From: Salinibacterium sp. SWN167
GTDB lineage: Bacteria; Actinomycetota; Actinomycetes; Actinomycetales; Microbacteriaceae
Length of the DNA stretch: 64,000 bases
Assembly (NCBI RefSeq): GCF_015864665.1
Contig: NZ_JADYWU010000001.1
Location: 1,922,001 to 1,986,000 of the forward strand
Reading direction: 5' to 3'
Every line of letters begins with the position of its first letter. The stretch's first letter is position 1. A program made the translations under genes and the position numbers. Below, one piece after another: positions 54,055 to 58,021 of this stretch. The notes beneath the pieces are model-generated. The model saw only the letters and a list, made by a program, of their open reading frames with translations, did not search any database and had not been told where the DNA came from.

Positions 54055-54345
54055 TCACGCTAGCGAAAGGAAGAGCTTCTCGATCTCTTCTGACTGGGGC
54101 GATCCTTCCGCATCCGGGTTGATCAAGCACTCTTTCATAGCTTCGGAGATCACAAGGAAGCCTGCGCGATCAAGGGCTTTCGACACCGCGGCAAGTTGAT
54201 GCACGACGTCACGGCAGCCGGCGCCCGTTTCCACGGTGGCGATCAGGGCACCCAACTGTCCTTGAGCGCGGCGCAATCTGTTCACAATTTTCTTTTGCGC
54301 GTCTGAATCGGCATTCGGTAGCGATCCGGCGATCTCGGCAACCAT
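54055..54345 (-). CDS. cstR: CstR-like persulfide-sensing repressor (CsoR family)
   Basis: Four-helix CsoR/RcnR/CstR-family repressor of 96 residues. It has QKKIVNRLRRAQGQLGALIA and Cys44 and Cys73, which are 29 residues apart as in both CsoR and CstR. The His that CsoR uses for copper, four residues before the second Cys, is Ala69 here. This points to the CstR class, which forms sulfane-sulfur bridges between these two Cys. ATG 54345 is chosen with GAGAGACC upstream. Two operators lie in the divergent promoter to a sulfur operon, which agrees. Confidence 0.85.
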   Translation of the reverse strand: MVAEIAGSLPNADSDAQKKIVNRLRRAQGQLGALIATVETGAGCRDVVHQLAAVSKALDRAGFLVISEAMKECLINPDAEGSPQSEEIEKLFLSLA

Positions 54346-54370: not shown

Positions 54371-54423
54371 TTGACAGTCTCGATACCCCATAGGGTATAG
54401 TTCAAGCATACCCCCTAGGGTAT
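54371..54423. promoter_or_regulatory. Divergent promoter with two CstR-type operators
   Basis: Two near-identical 16-base palindromes, ATACCCCATAGGGTAT (54383-54398) and ATACCCCCTAGGGTAT (54408-54423), have a 25-base centre distance. This form is typical of CsoR-family operators. TTGACA at 54371 and a TATAGT at 54396 form a plus-strand promoter overlapping the first operator. The second lies just downstream of the likely start. The cstR gene begins 38 bases to the left, so one pair can control both sides. Confidence 0.8.
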
Positions 54424-54454: not shown

Positions 54455-54640
54455 ATGTGCAGAGCAGTTACGTGTCGTACATGCGGCAAAACTACGTGGG
54501 CAGGATGCGGACAACACATCCAGTCCGTCAAGCGCAGCGTGCCCGCATCCAACTGGTGCAACGGCAAGCACTCGCAGTCTGAGATTGACGCCGCAAAATC
54601 CGCTCAGGGCGGCTTCTTTGCCCGCCTCTTCGGTCGTTAG
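54455..54640 (+). CDS. Small cysteine-rich protein 1 (TWAGCG family)
   Basis: The 61 residues have Cys2, Cys7, Cys10, Cys18 and Cys35, with His21 (MCRAVTCRTCGKTTWAGCG, then QH). The CxxC plus GC-x-H pattern is like a small zinc ribbon, though it may instead carry sulfane sulfur. The C-terminal part is basic and ends FFARLFGR, a possible membrane-touching helix. It is the first gene of the operon under the CstR-type operators, and ATG 54455 is 31 bases after the last one. A weak ribosome site precedes it. I know of no assigned function. Confidence 0.8.
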   Translation: MCRAVTCRTCGKTTWAGCGQHIQSVKRSVPASNWCNGKHSQSEIDAAKSAQGGFFARLFGR

Positions 54641-54648
54641 GAGACCAC

Positions 54649-54762
54649 ATGTGCGCACAAGTTATTTGTCAAAAGTGCAGTAAACCCACTTGGGCTGGCT
54701 GCGGAGAACACATCGAGGATGCCCTCGCCAACGTCGCTGAACGCGACCGTTGCCACTGCTAA
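54649..54762 (+). CDS. Small cysteine-rich protein 2 (TWAGCG family)
   Basis: A 37-residue paralogue of the previous protein, only 8 bases downstream. It keeps every key residue: Cys2, Cys7, Cys10, TWAGC with Cys18, His21 and Cys35, and adds Cys37 in a CHC end. AGGAG lies 6 bases before ATG 54649, a strong translation signal for so small a frame. It lacks the basic FFARLF-type tail of its partner. Conserved Cys spacing between the two copies argues that both are functional. Function unknown; a metal- or sulfane sulfur-carrier role is inferred. Confidence 0.8.
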   Translation: MCAQVICQKCSKPTWAGCGEHIEDALANVAERDRCHC

Positions 54763-54857: not shown

Positions 54858-56267
54858 ATGCTTCTCGAACGCATCTATGACACCGACCTCGCTCAGGCTA
54901 GCTACTTCATCGGTTGCCAAGCCAAAGGCGAAGCGATCGTTGTTGACCCCCGCCGCGACCTCGACGTTTATCTTGAGATCGCCGCCAAGAACGGGATGAC
55001 CATCACGGCCGTCACCGAAACCCACATTCACGCCGACTACCTTTCCGGCACCCGCGAGCTTGCCGCTCGCACCGGTGCGGAGATTCTGGTGTCTGACGAA
55101 GGTGGCCCCGACTGGACCTACGGAAGCGCCTTCGACGGTGCTGTACGTATGAAAGACGGCCACATCATTACCCTCGGCAACATCACGCTGAAGGCCGTCC
55201 ACACTCCCGGGCACACTCCCGAGCACTTCTCCTTCTTGGTCACCGATGGCGCGCAGGCTGACGCTCCCGGTTTCATGCTCAGCGGAGACTTTGTCTTCGT
55301 CGGAGACCTCGGACGCCCCGACCTTCTCGACGAAGCTGCCGGCGGCGTTGACACCCGTTTCGGCGGAGCGAAAGACATTTTCGCCAGCCTGCGCGACCGC
55401 TTCCTCACCCTTCCCGACTATGTGCAGGTGTTGCCCGCCCACGGTGCCGGTAGCGCCTGCGGCAAAGCTCTCGGCGCAATTCCGACGACCACTGTCGGGT
55501 ACGAACGCGCGTTCGCGTGGTGGAGCCACTACGTCGAAAACAACGACGAACAAGGCTTTATCGACGAACTGCTCAACGGTCAACCGGATGCGCACGCCTA
55601 CTTTGGCCGCATGAAGGTGCAGAACCGACAGGGCCCGAACGTCATGGGCACCGTAACCCCGCTGCGCGAGTACACGACCGAGGAAGTCGCGACAGCGCTC
55701 GACGCCGACAGCGCGATCCTCATCGACACTCGCAACAATGCCGAAGTTCACCGTGGCACTGTGCCGCGCTCGCTCAACGTTCCCGGACCAGAGAAAGCAG
55801 CAAGCTACGGCGCTTGGGTCTACAACCCCGAGACAGAAACACGCCCCGTCATCCTTCTGGCTGACGATCTTGAACACGCCGAAGAGTTGCGTGACCACCT
55901 CGTGCGCGTGGGCATCGACACTGTTTCGGGCTTCGTGACGACCCTCGATGGACTCACCCTCGTTGTGCCCGAACTTGTCGATCCTGCCACGCTCGAAGAC
56001 GTTGATCGTGTGCTTCTGCTCGACGTGCGCAACAAAACCGAGTTTGCCGAGGGACACATCCCCGGTGCCGAGCAATTGAGCGGTGGCCGCGTCATGTGGG
56101 CGCTCGACCAGCTCCCCCGCGAAGGAACCATCGTGACGTACTGCCAAAGCGGAGTGCGCAACAGCGTGGCCGCGAGTGCCCTGCGCCGTGCTGGCTACGA
56201 CGTAGCCGAACTGGATGGCTCGTACCTTGGTTGGCTCGCAACTCCTGGTGCAGTCCCCGCGGTCTAA
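54858..56267 (+). CDS. cstB: CstB-like persulfide dioxygenase-rhodanese fusion
   Basis: Multidomain sulfur enzyme of 469 residues. The metallo-beta-lactamase part (about 1-260) has the metal site TETHIHADYLSG (His56, His58, Asp60), HTPGHTPEHF and the LSGDFVFVGD Asp, as in ETHE1-type persulfide dioxygenases. Two rhodanese domains follow. The first (about 275-370) has VILLADD in the active-site place and lacks the catalytic Cys; the second (about 380-469) has TYCQSGVRNS with Cys429. Cys20 and Cys201 are extra Cys in the dioxygenase part, at positions like those described for S. aureus CstB. GGAG precedes ATG 54858. Confidence 0.92.
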   Translation: MLLERIYDTDLAQASYFIGCQAKGEAIVVDPRRDLDVYLEIAAKNGMTITAVTETHIHADYLSGTRELAARTGAEILVSDEGGPDWTYGSAFDGAVRMKDGHIITLGNITLKAVHTPGHTPEHFSFLVTDGAQADAPGFMLSGDFVFVGDLGRPDLLDEAAGGVDTRFGGAKDIFASLRDRFLTLPDYVQVLPAHGAGSACGKALGAIPTTTVGYERAFAWWSHYVENNDEQGFIDELLNGQPDAHAYFGRMKVQNRQGPNVMGTVTPLREYTTEEVATALDADSAILIDTRNNAEVHRGTVPRSLNVPGPEKAASYGAWVYNPETETRPVILLADDLEHAEELRDHLVRVGIDTVSGFVTTLDGLTLVVPELVDPATLEDVDRVLLLDVRNKTEFAEGHIPGAEQLSGGRVMWALDQLPREGTIVTYCQSGVRNSVAASALRRAGYDVAELDGSYLGWLATPGAVPAV

Positions 56268-56276
56268 CGCGCCCTC

Positions 56277-57065
56277 ATGGAACCTAATCTGATCATCGCG
56301 CTGGCCCTTGCCGTGCTCGTGGGAGTTTCCCTCGGCATGCTCGGCGGGGGCGGCTCGATCCTCACGGTGCCGATCCTCACCTACGTTGCCGGCTTTGAGC
56401 CGCAGCAGGCGATTTCAGCTTCGCTGTTTATCGTGGGCGTCACGAGCGCAGTGAGCGTTTTTCATCACGCTCGGGTCGGACGCGTGCGCTGGCGAACCGG
56501 ATTGATTTTTGGTGTTTCAGGAATGGCGGGCGCTTTTGCCGGAGGCATCGTCGGCGGGTTCATCCCGGGCACGATTCTCATGGTTCTCTTCGCTGCCATG
56601 ATGGTGGCTACTGCGACCGCCATGATCCGCGGCCGCAAGAAAGTACCCGCCGGTTCACTTCACGAGCCCGCGAAACTCCCCGTCCTCCGCATTATTCGTG
56701 ACGGGTTCTTCGTCGGTATTGCCGCAGGGCTTGTTGGTGCCGGCGGCGGATTCCTTATCGTTCCCGCGCTCACCCTTCTTGGCGGTCTTCCGGTCGCGGT
56801 GGCAGTAGGAACCTCGCTGCTCGTCATTGCGATGCAGTCGTCCGCCGGCCTCGTCGCTCACCTCTTTACCGTCGACCTACCCTGGCCGACGATCCTTGCC
56901 TTCACCGGTATCGCCGTTGCGGGATCGTTTGTGGGAGCGGCTCTCGCCGGGCGCATCCCCGAAACGGCCCTCCGCAAGGGCTTTGGAATCTTTGTTCTCG
57001 TGATCGGCGCGTTCGTGCTCGTGCAAGAAATCCCGCAATTGATCCCTCTCCTGACAGGAGCGTGA
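56277..57065 (+). CDS. tauE: TauE/SafE-family anion exporter
   Basis: Membrane protein of 262 residues with about eight helices in two related halves, each starting with a glycine-rich loop (GVSLGMLGGGGSILTVP and GLVGAGGGFLIVPALT), the TauE/SafE hallmark. Family members move sulfite, sulfoacetate or related anions. Here the gene lies 9 bases after the CstB-like gene, and a TauE gene is also part of the S. aureus cst locus, so it most likely exports sulfite or thiosulfate made by persulfide oxidation. The precise anion is inferred. Confidence 0.88.
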   Translation: MEPNLIIALALAVLVGVSLGMLGGGGSILTVPILTYVAGFEPQQAISASLFIVGVTSAVSVFHHARVGRVRWRTGLIFGVSGMAGAFAGGIVGGFIPGTILMVLFAAMMVATATAMIRGRKKVPAGSLHEPAKLPVLRIIRDGFFVGIAAGLVGAGGGFLIVPALTLLGGLPVAVAVGTSLLVIAMQSSAGLVAHLFTVDLPWPTILAFTGIAVAGSFVGAALAGRIPETALRKGFGIFVLVIGAFVLVQEIPQLIPLLTGA

Positions 57066-57068
57066 CCG

Positions 57069-57635
57069 TTGCCCACGACAGAACCAGCAACGGCGGCAGC
57101 AACACCAGCGCCAGCACCGAGCCCGCCGAAAGTGCCCACCGTGGGTTCTCTCATTGAGGGCTACGACATTCCGGTGGTCAACGAGCGCGCTGTTCGCGTG
57201 GCGGCAGGCATTCTCTTTAGTGCCGGAGCCATCTCGATCACGCTTGCTGTCATCCAGCATTCGGCCGTTCCGCTTCGCCCTTTCGGTGTCTTTTTCATGA
57301 TGGATATGCTCATTCGGGTCACCGTCGGTGATCGTTGGTCGCCGACCCTCGCACTGGGCCGTCTCATTGTTCGACGACAGCCGCCGAGCTGGGTAGGTGC
57401 CCCGCAGAAAGAGTTCGCTTGGTGGCTTGGTTATGGCCTTGCCCTCCTCTCGTGCGCGGGAATGGGCGTGCTGGGCGCGCCCCTCGAGGCCACACTGGCG
57501 CTGTGCGGTTTGTGCCTTTCTCTGTTGTTCTTAGAAGCCGCCTTCGGTATTTGCGTTGGCTGTGCTCTTCAGCGCGTGCTCACAAAAACACCACCCCAAT
57601 ACTGCCCGGGCGATTCGTGCCGGGTTCCCGAATAA
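57069..57635 (+). CDS. DUF4395 membrane protein with Cys pairs
   Basis: The 188 residues have a Pro/Ala-rich start, four helices (about 45-62, 70-85, 118-135 and 140-160) and a DUF4395 pattern of VNERAVRVAAG and FGVFFMMDMLIRV. Cys pairs occur in LALCGLCLSLLF, FGICVGC and the C-terminal PQYCPGDSCRVPE. The start is TTG 57069 with AGGAG about 8 bases upstream, 3 bases after tauE. DUF4395 proteins occur beside rhodanese and thioredoxin genes. A membrane thiol-sulfur relay is a reasonable guess. Confidence 0.82.
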   Translation: MPTTEPATAAATPAPAPSPPKVPTVGSLIEGYDIPVVNERAVRVAAGILFSAGAISITLAVIQHSAVPLRPFGVFFMMDMLIRVTVGDRWSPTLALGRLIVRRQPPSWVGAPQKEFAWWLGYGLALLSCAGMGVLGAPLEATLALCGLCLSLLFLEAAFGICVGCALQRVLTKTPPQYCPGDSCRVPE

Positions 57636-57658: not shown

Positions 57659-58021
57659 ATGTTCCGTCCCCTCGCCGCTCTCGCTGGCTCTCTCGTCGTG
57701 CTGGCATCGATCGCTGGATGCTCGGCCGCGGGCGATTCTGTTGAACTCAGCGCTGACACCATCCTCATCGACGTTCGCACCCCCGCGGAATACGACGCCG
57801 GACACCTCGAGGGCGCTACGCTGCTCGACCTCAACGGTGGCGAATTTGCTGCTGCGCTTCCGACTCTCGACCCCGAGGCCGAGTACGCCGTCTACTGCAA
57901 GTCGGGCAACCGTTCCGGTCAAGCTGTCGCCCTCATGGAAGAAGCTGGATTCGAGAACGTGATCGACCTCGGCTCCATTGGTGAGGCAGAAGCCTCCACC
58001 CAGATCGAGGTTGTGCAGTAG
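57659..58021 (+). CDS. Rhodanese-domain lipoprotein
   Basis: The 120-residue product has a signal peptide with lipobox SIAGC (Cys21) and a single rhodanese domain ending VYCKSGNRSGQAV, with catalytic Cys at about 81. It is therefore outside the membrane, anchored by a lipid. AAGGAG precedes ATG 57659; the open frame upstream lacks any site. It is the last gene of the sulfur operon. It would accept a sulfane sulfur from the DUF4395 neighbour or from the medium. The direction is unknown. Confidence 0.86.
   Translation: MFRPLAALAGSLVVLASIAGCSAAGDSVELSADTILIDVRTPAEYDAGHLEGATLLDLNGGEFAAALPTLDPEAEYAVYCKSGNRSGQAVALMEEAGFENVIDLGSIGEAEASTQIEVVQ

Follow-up and report, generated by a model that had tools for sequence, protein, structure and literature searches.

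Two small cysteine-rich genes of Salinibacterium sp. SWN167, designated A and B, are found in the window (the whole 64,000-nucleotide stretch of DNA that was analysed) within a group of genes related to persulfide metabolism. Gene A encodes the 61-amino-acid protein MCRAVTCRTCGKTTWAGCGQHIQSVKRSVPASNWCNGKHSQSEIDAAKSAQGGFFARLFGR, and gene B, which follows after a gap of 8 bases, encodes the 37-amino-acid protein MCAQVICQKCSKPTWAGCGEHIEDALANVAERDRCHC. Both proteins possess Cys2, the Cys7-x2-Cys10 pair, the TWAGC motif with Cys18, His21 and Cys35, and Cys37 is an extra cysteine of protein B. The features of the locus are as follows.

54055..54345, minus strand: CsoR-family repressor of the CstR type (Pfam PF02583, E 1.9e-20; fingerprint GC-A-C)
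54371..54376, plus strand: TTGACA, a -35-like hexamer by sequence, directly before operator 1
54383..54398, no strand assigned: operator 1, ATACCC-N4-GGGTAT, perfect 16-bp palindrome
54408..54423, no strand assigned: operator 2, ATACCC-N4-GGGTAT, perfect 16-bp palindrome
54455..54640, plus strand: gene A, 61-aa Cys-rich protein, long form with a GFFARLFGR tail
54639-54643, plus strand: AGGAG ribosome site of gene B, 5' of its ATG and overlapping the stop codon of gene A
54649..54762, plus strand: gene B, 37-aa Cys-rich protein, short form with a Cys-x-Cys end
54858..56267, plus strand: CstB-like metallo-beta-lactamase/rhodanese fusion of the persulfide dioxygenase type (Pfam Lactamase_B and Rhodanese)
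56277..57065, plus strand: TauE/SafE sulfite exporter family protein (Pfam PF01925, E 6.3e-48)
57069..57635, plus strand: DUF4395 protein (Pfam PF14340, E 3.8e-25)
57665..58021, plus strand: rhodanese (Pfam PF00581, E 2.4e-14), N-terminus lipoprotein-like by eye

The initial annotation described a small paralogous Cys-rich pair with this spacing and this shared Cys/His motif, a ribosome site ahead of the second reading frame, and a position after CstR-type operators and before a CstB-like enzyme; all of these were found as described, the last by both gene order and Pfam matches. The two operators are placed between gene A and the divergent CsoR-family gene, the product of which shows Cys-Ala-Cys with no His at the copper-ligand position and for which an alternative in-frame TTG start at 54405 is possible. 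A sigma-70 promoter scan upstream of gene A gave no full match. In comparisons with two congeners, pS was 0.217-0.614 and pN 0.035-0.151 for gene A, and pS was 0.364-0.412 and pN 0.034-0.079 for gene B; pN was lower than pS in 6/6 pairwise comparisons, and purifying selection acts on both genes.

Neither protein matched any Pfam, NCBIfam or PADLOC model over its curated cut-off, the best match of protein A below the cut-off being DUF702 (E 0.022), and 29 family members gave only weak matches to Pfam, the best being to DUF5651 (E 0.00052 in two of the 29). For A, B and these 29 members, no Pfam match to TusA, DsrC or rhodanese was obtained at E values up to 1. The best PDB match in a search for solved relatives by sequence was a cerato-platanin-like protein at chance level (E 0.26 and 0.11), and none of the titles and abstracts listed in searches of open-licence PMC articles names the family. 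That gene finders may miss the short protein, as had been foreseen, is borne out by a plasmid record in which the 61-aa form is entered as a "hypothetical protein" while the 37-aa form is left unannotated; a 55-aa form likewise has no annotated gene in a second plasmid record, and the PLSDB gene table that served as the source is itself incomplete.

Distribution and conserved residues of the family

Judged by sequence, A and B are members of an actinobacterial family without a curated name. Of 150 genomes from the taxonomic family of the A/B host 64 gave a match, as did 36 of 296 genomes of the phylum, and a contig scan of named genomes gave at least 589 confirmed stretches, the best 80 of which were kept. 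Cys2, Cys7, Cys10, Gly17, Cys18, Gly19, His21 and Cys35 are retained in all 210 distinct members of 36-70 aa, and Trp15 in 207 of them, in a count from which shorter and longer members and the second fragment of a broken gene (L169) were dropped and in which repeated protein sequences were counted once. Members had been collected with a profile and, in L033-L112, by way of a TWxGCG[QE]H pattern, which favours Cys18 and His21. Random loss of the cysteine pattern among relatives, which the initial annotation had named as evidence against its proposal, was therefore not observed, as every one of the 210 keeps all six Cys/His positions. The matches in both genome sets, these invariant residues and the low pN relative to pS indicate that the family is real and not a product of chance.

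Three forms, labelled here by length and ending, can be distinguished: form A has 61 aa and ends with WC followed by G-x-H, form B has approximately 37-40 aa and a C-x-C ending, and form C has approximately 55 aa and a C-x-G-H ending. Most of the endings listed contain a seventh possible ligand, which is Cys37, His38 or His39. Of the 160 forms with at least 48 aa, 141 fit a loose pattern for a GFFxRLFGR-like tail, and among 20 distinct same-strand pairs of family genes less than 900 bp apart the longer gene comes first in 18. Two family genes, both without an operator, are broken by in-frame stops (L169:4348-4419 and L211:5001).

Among the plasmid records that match the family, 82 of 85 belong to ten actinobacterial genera, and one of the other three is a chance-level match (E 0.8). 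Presence outside Actinomycetota was considered, among the best 80 stretches kept, for a MAG titled "Acidobacteria bacterium" (G442, locus L055) and rejected; its three family matches stand at the same contig positions as those of G066, a genome of the taxonomic family of the A/B host, and the title is probably wrong. The family is also matched by four IMG/VR contigs and one phage record. A viral role was discarded, the four IMG/VR contig stretches having no match to six regulon profiles; near the end of one such contig (L113) stands a gene of type A, under a perfect N4 site, which is probably part of a host flank.

Gene neighbourhood, operators and repressor type

Eighty loci of the same taxonomic family, including the A/B locus, were taken with 5 kb on either side where contigs allow and scanned in six frames with profiles. 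A regulon gene, defined as a CsoR-type, persulfide dioxygenase (PDO), CoA-disulfide reductase (CoADR), rhodanese or TauE gene with thioredoxin excluded, lies within 3 kb in 47 of the 80 loci, versus 2.2% of control windows, which were taken from 400 kb of DNA in 20 of the genomes with these loci, as 20 stretches of 20 kb placed at round and hence non-random coordinates and scanned alike with the neighbour profiles, themselves built from the neighbours of the same 80 loci. By gene type, the counts of loci within 3 kb are 42 for CsoR, 26 for CoADR, 21 for rhodanese, 13 for PDO, 11 for TauE and 17 for thioredoxin. The search for such small proteins next to CsoR/CstR and rhodanese genes that the initial annotation had proposed thus revealed an enrichment across relatives, and the opposite outcome, homologues mostly away from sulfur genes, did not emerge, as 33 of the 80 loci stand apart from regulon genes and 25 of these 33 retain a perfect operator. 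Regulon genes were also found near 51 of the 80 named loci (L033-L112) and, within a flank of only 1.5 kb, in 12 of 27 loci outside the taxonomic family. Viewed in reverse and read by coordinates, 13 of 15 copies of the PDO-rhodanese gene at 62% identity or more have a family gene close by, the two exceptions being in G064 and, near a contig end, in G020.

A Microbacterium plasmid contains, in order, form A, thioredoxin, form B (no annotated gene), a PDO-type metallo-beta-lactamase (MBL) enzyme, TauE, DUF4395 and rhodanese, which is the order of the Salinibacterium A/B locus plus thioredoxin. On a Curtobacterium plasmid the order is regulator, form C (no annotated gene), rhodanese, DsrE and TauE, and trxA and the gene of an MBL enzyme come later. 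In L150, L154, L155 and L166, the A and B genes flank a thioredoxin gene that has their orientation, and in L151, L219 and L224 a thioredoxin gene directly follows the long form. Short forms under an N4 site precede a P-type ATPase gene by 77-84 bp in L173 and L198 and by 622 bp in L176; these neighbours are a hint of a metal-related role and weigh against a purely sulfur-based reading. Isolated short forms follow isocitrate-dehydrogenase genes in five loci (L164, L176, L180, L193 and L198), as checked with Pfam in two.

A search with half sites taken from the A/B locus showed a perfect ATACCC-N3/4-GGGTAT site in the 200 nt preceding 108 of 213 distinct members, a count that left out members of L001-L032 and any member with less than 100 nt upstream, versus 0 of 2000 200-mers of control DNA and 0 of 1065 shuffled upstream regions. 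The spacing is N4 in 102 of the 108 perfect sites, N3 in 6 and N5 in none, and 104 of the sites begin 30-89 nt before the ATG. When inverted repeats were counted without guidance, ATACCC-N4 came first, at 102 of 213. By locus, a perfect site stands before some member in 56 of 80. Only 8 of the 33 loci apart from regulon genes also lack the operator, and two of these eight (L169 and L211) are those with in-frame stops. Outside the taxonomic family the perfect operator is rarer (5 of 27 loci).

At the level of whole genomes, N4 sites occur in 52 of 64 family-positive versus 8 of 86 family-negative genomes, the perfect N4 site being absent in 12 of the 64. The link persisted when a single genome was taken per genus to allow for kinship (N4 versus family, 32/5 against 5/43). 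Among the 14 genera in which presence is mixed, it is borne out in 9 and contradicted in none, and 5 are uninformative. N5 sites, present in 47 of 64 family-positive versus 59 of 86 family-negative genomes (p 0.59), show no such link. Reversed patterns in the 150 genomes gave no N4 site and one N5 site (in G141).

The type of the neighbouring repressor was read at a position that we take to be the copper-ligand His. Of the 84 CsoR-family proteins encoded within 2.5 kb of family genes, 71 could be read with the fingerprint pattern and 13 could not, and each of the 71 carries Ala, Gly or Ser there. The positive control consisted of nine CsoR proteins whose genes adjoin N5 sites (own genome, L281, L292 and L300-L305), chosen for a CsoR match at the site; the His is present in all nine, two of which were read by eye. 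In L300 and L301, the N5 sites stand at a third kind of CsoR-family gene, with Cys-His-His instead of Cys-His-Cys.

The genes controlled by the two spacings were compared at 20 N4 and 20 N5 sites hand-picked among the matches listed, none of the N4 sites immediately preceding a family gene, although at least those of L256 and L263 belong to the same gene clusters as such genes. The picked N4 sites lead to CoADR-rhodanese (8) and rhodanese (7) genes, followed by genes for TauE, thioredoxin, a YgaP-like transmembrane protein (just below its Pfam cut-off), cytochrome bd subunit I and DUF2202. The last three types, before which N4 sites stand in L257, L259 and L261 (sites at 2001), are candidate new regulon members. 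P-type ATPase genes lie behind twelve of the picked N5 sites; two of the twelve encode a heavy-metal domain and three start almost 300 nt from the site, and we infer that the ATPases carry copper. Other N5 sites lie at a CsoR gene (L281) and before a CoADR-rhodanese gene (L282).

The N4 operator, the different target genes of N4 and N5 sites and the 71 repressors without the copper His together make it almost certain that the family genes belong to a CstR-type sulfane-sulfur regulon, the repressor of which would bind the N4 operator. Membership of A and B in a persulfide operon, as originally suggested, is strongly supported by operators, neighbours and repressor type. Identical half sites that differ by one base in their spacing largely set the sulfur regulon apart from the copper regulon, which offers a simple if imperfect way to tell the two apart in these genomes, N4 being mostly sulfur and N5 mostly copper. 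Exceptions are L282 and G135, a genome without the family in which a copper-type CsoR with the His present has an N4 site (L299). The CoADR-rhodanese gene has an N5 site in G059 (L282) and an N4 site in G128 (L260) of the same genus, which is possibly a natural change of control.

In the genome of Salinibacterium sp. SWN167 itself, N4 sites comprise the tandem pair at A/B, one site before a flavoprotein gene (Pfam Pyr_redox_2) and one before a carboxymuconolactone-decarboxylase-family gene, and the flavoprotein looks like a sulfide:quinone reductase. Two N5 sites are present, one at a CsoR gene with the His and one at a gene that is ATPase-like by eye. The site positions are G000:C1:310048, 728689, 1870978, 1976383 and 1976408, and C2:675579. 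A CoADR-rhodanese gene has an N4 site in the congener stretch L308 (G145:C1:658400-660400) and none in the corresponding own-genome stretch L307. The CoADR gene of the own genome, suspected of being broken, is intact, the stop being the end of the gene.

S. aureus CstR is the repressor of a sulfane-sulfur regulon. CstR and S. coelicolor ScCsoR represent the same regulator type without the copper His, the operator at A/B has the ScCsoR form, and their regulons share persulfide dioxygenase, rhodanese and TauE with the A/B operon. The 16-bp ScCsoR sulfane-sulfur site ATACC-N6-GGTAT has the length of the N4 site, and the MEME inputs that yielded this motif included sites of copper-type CsoR and RicR (PMC7533328), so that this source alone cannot separate sulfur from copper sites. 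The Streptomyces copper CsoR consensus has N5 between the same half sites (PMC3902906). In Thermus thermophilus, the sulfur and copper CsoR paralogues TTHA1953 and TtCsoR share no sites, and spacing matters for one of them; their operator sequence is a different one, and no small Cys protein appears in the passages of PMC10318464 consulted.

Possible functions of the small proteins

AlphaFold2 models of middling quality (pLDDT 81, pTM 0.42-0.52) predict strands at residues 3-6 and 13-16 and a helix from residue 19 in B or residue 22 in A. In these models, the location of Cys7-x2-Cys10 in a turn and of Cys18-x2-His21 at or just before the helix would make a zinc site plausible. Fold comparison with 18 and 16 chains gave no match that reached Z 2.

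TusA, DsrC and rhodanese are sulfur carriers that move sulfane sulfur between enzymes by means of a single carrier Cys, whereas the family of A and B has several invariant Cys and no Pfam match to them. Closer precedents are provided by metallothionein-3, a small zinc protein rich in Cys, which carries sulfane sulfur as C-S-S-Zn and is reset by thioredoxin (PMC12618007), and by PerR of Synechococcus PCC7002, which loses zinc on persulfidation of Cys121 and from the Cys4 site of which polysulfide releases zinc (PMC9952342). Metallothionein-3 is mammalian, and the invariant His and near-invariant Trp of the present family set the two apart; PerR, unlike A and B, is a transcription factor with a Cys4 site.

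On the strength of these two precedents and of the thioredoxin gene in several family operons, A and B are best read as zinc-thiolate mini-proteins that would accept sulfane sulfur and be reset by thioredoxin, with a probability of roughly 0.45, ahead of a structural adaptor. In the proposed sequence, a rise in persulfide would cause CstR to release the operator, and A and B would be produced. Zinc-bound Cys7, Cys10 and Cys18, together with Cys2, Cys35 and Cys37, may then take up sulfane sulfur as Cys-S-SH or Cys-S-S-Zn. The two proteins could buffer the sulfur and pass it to rhodanese, persulfide dioxygenase or CoA-disulfide reductase, and thioredoxin may cleave polysulfide bridges and reset them. 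The aromatic-basic tail of the long form could dock to the membrane or a partner enzyme, and the short form may be its soluble partner. Against the acceptor reading, the invariant ligands could be purely structural, and the four-gene sulfane-sulfur circuit of S. coelicolor works with no small Cys protein of this kind found in the passages of PMC7533328 consulted, in which respect it differs from the A/B operon; to that extent, the family is not required for such a circuit.

The known parts of sulfane-sulfur regulons are sensors, enzymes and exporters, and retention of the operator at most copies without a nearby sulfur gene points to a missing, non-enzymatic component. The N4 operator at isolated copies, the contrast with N5, the form of approximately 55 aa, the GFFxRLFGR-like tail and thioredoxin between A and B extend the first reading of the sequence. 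The complete concept of a "sulfothionein", a sulfane-sulfur-inducible mini zinc protein with a long form that docks to membrane or enzyme and a short soluble form, the zinc thiolates of which would store sulfane sulfur and be unloaded by thioredoxin, is more tentative than the acceptor reading and more probably wrong than right. If true, many Actinomycetota would possess a non-enzymatic level of persulfide control that annotation has passed over, and the unloading thioredoxin would be co-transcribed in some lineages. A and B are small enough for quick production and assay, which makes the holding and moving of labile persulfide directly testable.

The foremost competitor, itself unlikely, is a zinc-finger adaptor, in which the zinc site would be structural and sulfur-resistant and the tail of the long form would dock regulon enzymes to each other or to the membrane, the short form capping or competing. 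The tail of the long forms (141/160, loose pattern), the long-first order of 18 of 20 gene pairs and the predicted knuckle and helix are consistent with this idea; however, the short forms lack the tail, and partners vary by locus (PDO, CoADR-rhodanese, rhodanese or none), so that there is no single enzyme to dock. A considerably less probable role is that of a zinc reserve, which would buffer or supply zinc or another metal under sulfide or persulfide without a sulfur-transfer function. The six to seven conserved Cys/His, the release of zinc from the PerR Cys4 site by polysulfide (PMC9952342) and the P-type ATPase genes after the short form in L173, L176 and L198 would suit it, but the operator and most recognisable neighbours are those of sulfur genes. 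Slightly less probable again is a partner of the repressor that binds CstR and tunes the response as a co-repressor or anti-repressor, as could be suggested by the presence of a CsoR-family gene no more than 3 kb away at 42 of 80 loci; many copies lie far from any regulator and are themselves under its operator, which argues against it.

Mycobacterial MymT is a copper metallothionein under RicR, a CsoR-family repressor, and resembles A and B as a small Cys-rich actinobacterial protein with such a repressor, but differs in operator spacing, regulator type and neighbours. A MymT-like copper metallothionein under a copper CsoR/RicR, despite the small size, the abundance of Cys, the CsoR-family operators, the P-type ATPases in L173, L176 and L198 and the N4 site at a copper-type CsoR in the family-less G135, was rejected as the lead reading and is very improbable, as none of the 108 perfect sites has N5 spacing, family presence tracks N4 and not N5 across genomes, and the copper His is absent from all 71 readable neighbouring repressors and present in all nine at N5 sites.
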